DNA from: Natronorubrum daqingense
Lineage (GTDB): Archaea; Halobacteriota; Halobacteria; Halobacteriales; Natrialbaceae
NCBI RefSeq assembly: GCF_001971705.1
Contig: NZ_CP019327.1
Location: 434,001-498,000, forward strand
DNA: 64,000 bases
Direction: 5' to 3'
The notes beneath the pieces were generated by a model. That model did no database searches and had not been told where the DNA came from. It worked only from the letters and a program-made list of their open reading frames with translations. The stretch's first letter is position 1, and each line of letters starts with the position of its first letter. The position numbers were made by a program, and so were the translations under genes. Shown here one piece after another: positions 16,268 to 41,935 of this stretch.

Positions 16268-16567
16268 AGTTGCGCAGTCGAGTGAGAAGCTGGCTCGAGA
16301 CGGATTCGCTCGAGACGGATACCTGTGGCCGGGAGCGCGTCTCGAGCACCGCGAGAGTCGCGCGACCCGGGGAAGGGCAGGCTACCACCCGAAAACGACC
16401 GCGAGCGAGCCCGAAGGGCGAGCGAGCGGGCCGACGACTGATGTGGAGGGGTGCGACGCACCCCGGAACGGAAGAAGGAGTGCTTTTGATCGAAATTTTA
16501 CCGAGGGACGTTGCGAGCGAGACAGTTCTGTCTCGCTCGCAACAGATCGCAGCGTAAAATTTCGGTG
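16268..16567. other. Intergenic gap between convergent genes with repeats
   Basis: 300 bases between the M48 protease and the geranylgeranyl reductase stop. It is rich in GAGCGAG words (low-complexity, common at haloarchaeal gene ends) and contains a strong nested inverted repeat at its right end. No plausible coding frame was seen. Confidence 0.5.
16491..16564. terminator. Nested inverted repeat, probable bidirectional terminator
   Basis: Inner arms GTTGCGAGCGAGACAG (16510-16525) and its exact complement (16528-16543) are separated by TT. Outer arms CGAAATTTTAC (16491-16501) and GTAAAATTTCG (16554-16564) flank them. It lies between convergent genes with its last base three bases from the reductase stop codon, so a bidirectional terminator or mRNA-end hairpin is the simplest reading. 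A mini-element footprint is an alternative. Confidence 0.55.
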
Positions 16568-40658: not shown

Positions 40659-40745
40659 GCAGGCGGTGTCTCATCGTCACACGGCATAGCAATTCGGCCG
40701 TCGCACGAAACGTCTCCCCGGTCGACGCGTTCGTCCCACCGTGTC

Positions 40746-41036
40746 CCGTTCGGGTGGTTCACGGCGTTCACCACCGCTCACGCAAAAATCTGTCTGGCGA
40801 GAGCATCGCTCTCGCTGACCTTCGCTCACTCCGTTTGCGAAGAGACCAAAAAGCCGCTCGTTCGCTTCGCTCACTCGCGGGTCGATACCGCTTAGTCGGA
40901 TGTTACTCGAGCACTGTCGCCCTCACTCGAGTCGCGCGTCGGTAATCTGTAACCGTCCGCGCGTTCCATCCCACTCGGTCTCGTACTCGAGGTCGATTCG
41001 GCGCTCCATGTGTGGCCCATCCAAAACCAGTGTCTC
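40746..41036. repeat. Diverged copy A of the dph6-like 3' region
   Basis: Begins CCGTTCGGGTGGTTCACGGC and runs to CAGTGTCTC. It matches copy B (41051-41272) in the same order over flank, stop codon and coding end. Copy A has about 55 extra bases in the flank (around 40794-40848). The copies are about 90% identical in the coding part by eye. Confidence 0.75.
40923..41036 (-). pseudogene. Residual 3' fragment of a dph6-like gene
   Basis: On the minus strand the fragment encodes ETLVLDGPHMERRIDLEYET followed by EWDGTRGRLQITDARLE and a TGA at 40923-40925. It is collinear with the last 38 residues of the intact gene next door with one amino-acid change (Gln for Glu), and about nine other base changes are synonymous. 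There is no start codon or upstream part, so it cannot make protein. See the finding on allele replacement. Confidence 0.75.
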
Positions 41037-41050
41037 TGAACCACCTTTTT

Positions 41051-41272
41051 CCGTTCGGGTGGTTCACGCCGTTCACCACCGCTCACGCAAAAATCTGGAC
41101 CAAAAAAGCCGCTCGTTCGCGTTGCTCACTCGCGGGACAACAACGTTCAGTGTGGATGTCACTCGAGTCGCGCGTCAGTAATCTCCAACCGTCCGCGTGT
41201 TCCGTCCCACTCAGTTTCGTACTCGAGGTCGATTCGGCGCTCCATATGCGGGCCATCCAAAACCAGTGTCTC
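41051..41272. repeat. Copy B of the dph6-like 3' region (part of intact gene)
   Basis: Begins CCGTTCGGGTGGTTCACGCC and ends CAGTGTCTC inside the intact gene. It is the partner of copy A. Only the last 114 bases are coding. Confidence 0.75.
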
Positions 41273-41884
41273 GAATTCGCCACCCTCCCCCAGGATGTGA
41301 ACGCCGTACTCCTCGTTCAGGGCCTCGAGTTCCCTGATCGCGTCGTGATCGAGCGTTCTGCCGAGCCACGACTCGTCGAGTCCGTGGGCTGCGACCTGGA
41401 TGATCGCGATTTCGAACCCGGCCTCGAGCATCGCGTCGACGAGGTCGCGCGGATCTTCCTGCCAGAGCGGAGCGAACAACTCGCAGCCGAGCCGGTCGCA
41501 CATCGCTTCGATACGACTCGTCTGGTACTCGCTCTCGACGGCACCGGCCGTGACTCCGGCGATTCCTTCCTCGAGTTCTCGATCGAGGTCGACGAGTGCG
41601 GCCTCGAGTGGCTCGAGTTCCGCATCACCCTGCGCGCCCGAATCGACCGTCTCCTCGGCCTCGAAATCGGCGGGCTCGACGTCGATCAGGGGAATTCCAG
41701 TACTGTCGGCCGCCAACGCGGCGAGGTCCGTCGCCGGTACGTGATACATGTAGGAGTCGCCCGTCGGATGAACGGTGACCAGGTGTGAGACGTCGAGTCC
41801 CTCCTCGAGTGCCCGATAGAGCGCCCACGAGGAGTCCTTTCCGCCGGAAAAGAGGCTAATCCACGTCCCGTCTGCGTCGCTCAT
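41159..41884 (-). CDS. Diphthine-ammonia ligase-like ATP pyrophosphatase (Dph6 family)
   Basis: 241 residues from the ATG at 41884. The PP-loop GTWISLFSGGKDSSWALYRA and LEEGLDVSHLVTVHPTGDSY match the Dph6/ATP pyrophosphatase family that amidates diphthine on elongation factor 2. Conserved GVTAGAVESEYQTSRIEAMC, LGCELFAPLWQEDP, GVHILGEGGEFETLVLDGPH support the assignment. Start and length match archaeal versions. Its downstream side carries a diverged second copy of its own last 38 codons, so this locus has been recombined. Diphthamide biosynthesis is expected in archaea; the other dph genes are not in this window. Confidence 0.85.
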   Translation of the reverse strand: MSDADGTWISLFSGGKDSSWALYRALEEGLDVSHLVTVHPTGDSYMYHVPATDLAALAADSTGIPLIDVEPADFEAEETVDSGAQGDAELEPLEAALVDLDRELEEGIAGVTAGAVESEYQTSRIEAMCDRLGCELFAPLWQEDPRDLVDAMLEAGFEIAIIQVAAHGLDESWLGRTLDHDAIRELEALNEEYGVHILGEGGEFETLVLDGPHMERRIDLEYETEWDGTRGRLEITDARLE

Positions 41885-41935
41885 ATACACTCGCTGGGTA
41901 CACACGAGTAAAGGGATAACGAGTCGGCCTGCTTC

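Follow-up and report, generated by a model that had tools for sequence, protein, structure and literature searches.

Why is an intact gene in a haloarchaeal genome followed directly by a second copy of its own 3′ end? The case considered here lies in a stretch of 64,000 nucleotides from Natronorubrum daqingense (NZ_CP019327.1, positions 434,001–498,000), called the window below. The intact gene (41159..41905, minus strand) is identified as the archaeal diphthine–ammonia ligase gene dph6 by scores of 272 bits for TIGR03679 (cut-off 197) and 208 bits for PF01902; its open reading frame as listed begins at 41905, and the ATG at 41884 is the likelier start. Its final 37 codons and stop codon, here called tail B (41159..41272, minus strand), recur downstream as tail A (40923..41036, minus strand), which retains reading frame and stop and shows one amino-acid change, E to Q. 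A repeat search of the window placed the coding-end repeat at 40912–41036 versus 41148–41272 (88%) and found the 3′ flank to be duplicated as well (40736–40792/41041–41097, 93%; 40848–40896/41103–41151, 84%). The tails differ at 10 of 111 aligned coding bases, distributed 1/0/9 over the codon positions, and nine of these differences are synonymous, where chance would give 24%. A first-pass annotation of the locus had reported the duplication, and its counts and coordinates are confirmed. The next gene in the same direction, which encodes a DUF892 protein (domain match to PF05974; 40194..40658, minus strand), marks the end of the array.

What had been missed is a 67-bp palindromic element between the tails, E (41041..41107, minus strand), as well as a longer form, E′, at the downstream copy and the recurrence of the arrangement at other genes and in other species. 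E is a dispersed hairpin element of the general form TTTTTGGTCCAGATTTTT...hairpin...AAAAAGGTGG; at dph6, it reads TTTTTTGGTCCAGATTTTTGCG - hairpin - CGGAAAAAGGTGG and is recognised by an exact core match, a hairpin fold of −22.7 kcal/mol (z −2.4; −3.6 for a second E) and covarying ends. Chance would give no copy of the 20-base core in the window, which contains one. Covariation links NN in GGT-NN-AG to the two bases after the right-hand GGT. Among 176 instances, the two dinucleotides are almost always complementary: CC/GG in 147, most of them preselected by the search pattern, and GG/CC in 13, GC/GC in six and CG/CG in six, these 25 coming from looser patterns and all being fully paired. The exceptions are TC/GG (two instances, one wobble) and CC/GT (two, one side unpaired). 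Four junction bases, TTCA (41037..41040, minus strand), join E to tail A, and their counterparts in other genomes are TTCT, TTCC or TTCCT. On the other side of E, a CCGCGAG...GAGCGG stretch, read from the sequence, lies between the stop codon and the T tract (41109..41135, minus strand); similar stretches precede E at many other loci, and the piece containing this one folded no better than its shuffles. A kink-turn and an IS200/605-type guide pairing were looked for in E by eye and are not claimed.

Since E bears T tracts on both strands, folds as a hairpin and sits right after stop codons or between convergent genes—the latter, without a tail copy, in several more distant relatives—it would probably end transcripts on both strands. 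A search of Rfam returned no match. In Haloferax volcanii, according to the portions of a 3′-end mapping study consulted here, T stretches after genes, and a hairpin too, end transcripts in vivo, the motifs reported being a T stretch, AGATC and a hairpin (PMC7237163). E resembles such archaeal terminators in having T stretches and a hairpin after genes, but differs from them in that the same portions of that study describe neither a dispersed double T-tract hairpin nor a gene-end duplication (PMC7237163).

Tail A is followed by E′ (40737..40852, minus strand), a long form of E in which an additional hairpin-like sequence (TCTCTTCGC...GCCAGA) breaks up the T-tract core; this long form is shared with G003, the closest relative with a single dph6 tail. 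The insertion separates GGTC from CAGA in that core and is also found at three further loci (L138, L139 and L017). Within arrays, long forms tend to occupy the outer unit, and parts of them recur elsewhere in the genome. A second terminator-like family, GAGTGCTTTTNATC..TTTTGCCGAG...AAAA (T4 type), occurs at 16484 (plus strand) of the window and at L047, L091, L102 and L103, apparently between convergent genes; its arms are variable yet complementary, a design like that of E, and no gene-end copies were seen at its loci.

The arrangement at dph6 is not unique within this genome. The E core is present about 17 times, mostly just 3′ of a stop codon, and at most of these loci the gene preceding E has its end repeated on the far side of the element. 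This tail-E-tail order, the simplest and commonest form, is found at genes that resemble argF, pheT, ileS and pta (names based on a reading of translations rather than on database matches) and at others; at many loci, the last tail lacks a following E. For an estimate that does not depend on E, the window was combined with twenty 20-kb stretches chosen regardless of the element (464 kb, 367 genes). Among these genes, three true tail duplications were found, each with E or its CATCGAAG variant separating the copies; one additional high score was due to an adjacent acidic repeat, and the value for swapped controls was 0.33. At ileS, units differ in spacers and hairpins even within one genome: here, the gene-proximal unit carries a spacer and a hairpin of its own, and the outer units match G003. 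Near-identical multi-unit arrays also exist, namely at ileS in G006 and at dph6 in G024. At L055/L108 and L067/L076, at least two tandem copies were seen of the end of a gene that encodes YDGQVVERTPLA or something similar at its C-terminus; the E variants there are GGTCGAG/GGAGGAG, and the units are identical in G004.

Beyond this genome, relatives were compared with one genome per species. The exact E pattern is present in 61 of 121 genomes of the family, and 27 of 30 Natrialbaceae E loci fetched without regard to tails have a tail copy (two of them counted from loci already seen). Duplication of the dph6 tail extends over at least 11 Natrialbaceae genera and to Halosimplex of another family, the array junction common across these genera being AAAAAGGTGGTTC-n-GAGAC, and junctions fall at short matches between the right end of E and the gene. 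At ileS, species of this genus have one to four tails, and four of 10 species have no array. A match in an Anaerolinea contig was dismissed as a chance match. In Natronococcus jeotgali (G011; L080 and L166), the in-gene dph6 tail contains an N and an internal tail repeat, possibly a misassembly of the array.

Do the copies behave like discarded fragments? Across 54 tail pairs, differences are distributed 26/15/136 over the codon positions, and 141 of 177 are synonymous where 44 would be expected; tested against the share of about 40% predicted for a freely drifting copy of a constrained gene, this gives p = 5e-27, a value to be read with the shared ancestry of the pairs, not all of which are independent. 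The view of the first-pass annotation that both copies look protein-constrained is supported, and the even spread over codon positions that it had named as favouring a simple local duplication is not what is seen. Stops are placed identically in 44 of 47 copies, and two of 47 contain an internal stop. In a relative-rate test on 15 dph6 pairs, with the nearest other gene tail used to polarise the changes, 53 derived changes fell on the gene (35 synonymous, 18 nonsynonymous) and 60 on the copy (37 and 23; Fisher p = 0.70). The synonymous share of the copy-derived changes (37/60) exceeds the neutral 0.245 (p = 1e-9); that of orthologous tails is 66%. The faster decay without codon-position bias that would mark a pseudogene tail, i.e. 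a neutral partial gene duplicate, was not found. The copies do not outpace gene tails in their rate of change, and the synonymous proportion is the same in both, so that the copies are not pseudogene ends in decay; they have evolved the way gene ends do. The copy was also considered as a separate small protein, an idea provisionally set aside from the junction sequences, in which the frame preceding the copy varies among genes and no consistent start codon was seen.

The differences between gene and copy are unevenly placed along the tail. At dph6, synonymous differences per codon amount to 0.04–0.05 in codons 1–22, on the side of E, and to 0.31–0.33 in codons 23–37, whereas dph6 orthologues show 0.13–0.35 throughout and no such step (Fisher p = 6e-8). 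Other, shorter tails show a weaker polarity (0.118 versus 0.188). The simplest reading of this mosaic is conversion or exchange proceeding from E outward, with the outer part derived from another allele.

Where tail A came from can be approached through its kinship and its flank. In a tree of 47 dph6 tails, built from short rows and with rough support, A and B form a sister pair (99/73). The copy is also placed beside its own gene in most other genomes (100/96 in G021, 99/92 in G015, 100/100 in Halosimplex), so that a distant or foreign donor is not needed; the tail pairs of Haloterrigena and Natronococcus were not resolved as sisters. The first-pass annotation had proposed that a diverged homologue was recombined in, and had itself named such a sister grouping as one half of the result that would speak against this source. 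Tail A has the same 3′ flank and interrupted E′ as G003, which argues that A is the old end and B with E the newer piece; relative to G003, tail B carries seven derived changes and tail A three. The old flank likewise goes with the downstream copy at dph6 and ileS in the comparison of G000 with G003, and also in G021, whose outer dph6 tail retains the flank seen in relatives without the duplication. The proposed scar of an allele replacement accordingly stands insofar as an old tail was left behind, but not as a unique event, the same structure and junction being present in 12 or more genera and comparable structures surrounding E at other genes.

On balance, we lean towards regarding the locus as a [tail-E]n-tail array moved by homologous recombination between its repeats and between related strains. 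E and a duplicated gene end would have arisen long ago at a limited set of genes, the first tail perhaps being captured when copying restarted at a short match between the right end of E (AGGTGG/AGGTC) and the gene, which is a guess. As polyploid organisms, haloarchaea carry several genome copies, between which gene conversion has reportedly been described in Haloferax volcanii. Within such a cell, and with DNA of close relatives, the directly repeated ends could recombine, adding or removing [tail-E] units, swapping the tail that ends the gene and converting the element-side part of the copy to the sequence of the gene. Loss of a unit by tail–tail recombination would leave an intact gene, gain would require a relative with E, and at each turn the former gene end would become the displaced copy. 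Copy A may thus have been the working end of dph6 until recently, which would account for its synonymous differences. Conversion alone predicts about 40% synonymous differences and 80% are observed; exchange with related alleles must therefore be added. We take the partners to be close relatives, the process to be recurrent and E to be central to it, with two constrained tails having met, as the first-pass annotation had proposed. A bolder and more doubtful proposal, which we put forward tentatively, sees in E a terminator element of a new kind, selfish or regulatory. It would settle behind a gene by duplicating that gene's end and would then be maintained because the two ends recombine, so that working ends pass regularly from strain to strain while the gene stays intact.

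Other histories have to be weighed against the recombining array. E could be a mobile element whose insertion creates a long target duplication (about 30–130 bp) that stops at the stop codon; the same genes would have been hit again and again, each time independently, and each time the copies would be young. The prevalence of the plain tail-E-tail form, the junctions at short matches to the right end of E and the retention of the non-duplicated flank by the downstream tail of G021 would all suit such insertions, which we nevertheless consider unlikely: the extra junction bases, which at one gene are identical in different genera, point to descent or transfer, no transposase has so far been linked to E, and young neutral copies would be less synonymous than those seen. 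The constant short target duplication of a MITE is also not found, the duplicated length varying by gene between about 30 and 130 bp, and we know of no target duplications of such length. Quite unlikely, too, is a plain tandem duplication of tail and flank, in which slippage occurred at short matches like GGTGG and the outer copy then decayed neutrally. GGTGG is indeed present at the junctions and at the outer end of the duplication, and the units are tandem and in some arrays near-identical (ileS in G006, dph6 in G024); yet neutral decay predicts mostly nonsynonymous changes and faster copies, neither of which is seen, E is missing behind the last tail at many loci, and ileS units within one genome differ in spacers and hairpins.

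A single event in which a homologue from another species took the place of the dph6 end, with the old tail left behind and the element incidental, would explain the synonymous bias, the old flank next to copy A and the last 15 codons of dph6 pairs, which differ like orthologues. We judge it decidedly unlikely given the sister position of A and B, the shared structure and junction in at least 12 genera and the presence of E in every tail duplication of the unbiased sample. Least probable by far is the remnant of an attachment site, left by an integrative element that entered the dph6 end, brought a restoring tail and was then lost. The model for this is e14 at icd, where a new tail completes the gene, the old tail is displaced and the differences are mostly synonymous. 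The dph6 array resembles e14/icd in all three respects, but has neither integrase nor island, a unit of only ~230 bp and many target genes, and a single integrase would not target so many unrelated genes. No integrase accompanied by the same gene end on an element was found, no phage record contained the tail, plasmid matches look like dph6 genes where annotated (several records are unannotated), and no kilobase-size islands separate the tails at the dph6 locus in relatives.

Compared with known repeats, E shares with REP/BIME sequences that it is short, palindromic, intergenic and dispersed, often directly after stop codons, as borne out by its 17 core matches in this genome, its presence in 61 of 121 genomes and its covarying hairpin. 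It differs in its length of about 60–70 bp (20–40 bp in REP), its conserved T and A tracts and its position between two copies of a host gene end, and the sequences read showed no GTAG/CGTC-type tag, which in REP goes together with an associated Y1 transposase. The text of a survey of REP in bacteria and archaea contains no word starting with 'halo' or 'natri' (PMC12306157). Spare downstream copies of a gene's 3′ end are also a feature of pilS and of Rhs/CDI systems. There, silent pilin cassettes and displaced tips are exchanged by recombination, and the ends are variable, unlike the near-identical ends of housekeeping genes in the E arrays. In the open-access journal literature, where haloarchaeal repeats, duplicated gene ends, terminators and the core itself were looked for, no published description of this structure was found.

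If the recombining array is the right reading, what was presumed to be a scar at dph6 becomes a family-wide pattern, in which perhaps one gene in a hundred throughout an archaeal family has its end shaped by a short hairpin element and duplicated gene ends are held in a state resembling purifying selection. Such arrays would then provide a natural record of gene-end recombination and a set of covarying terminator candidates, and would be a warning for annotation and dN/dS work. Several relatives additionally carry a second, diverged dph6-like gene, 56–60% identical (G008:C37, G011:C92, G022:C1 and G024:C2).
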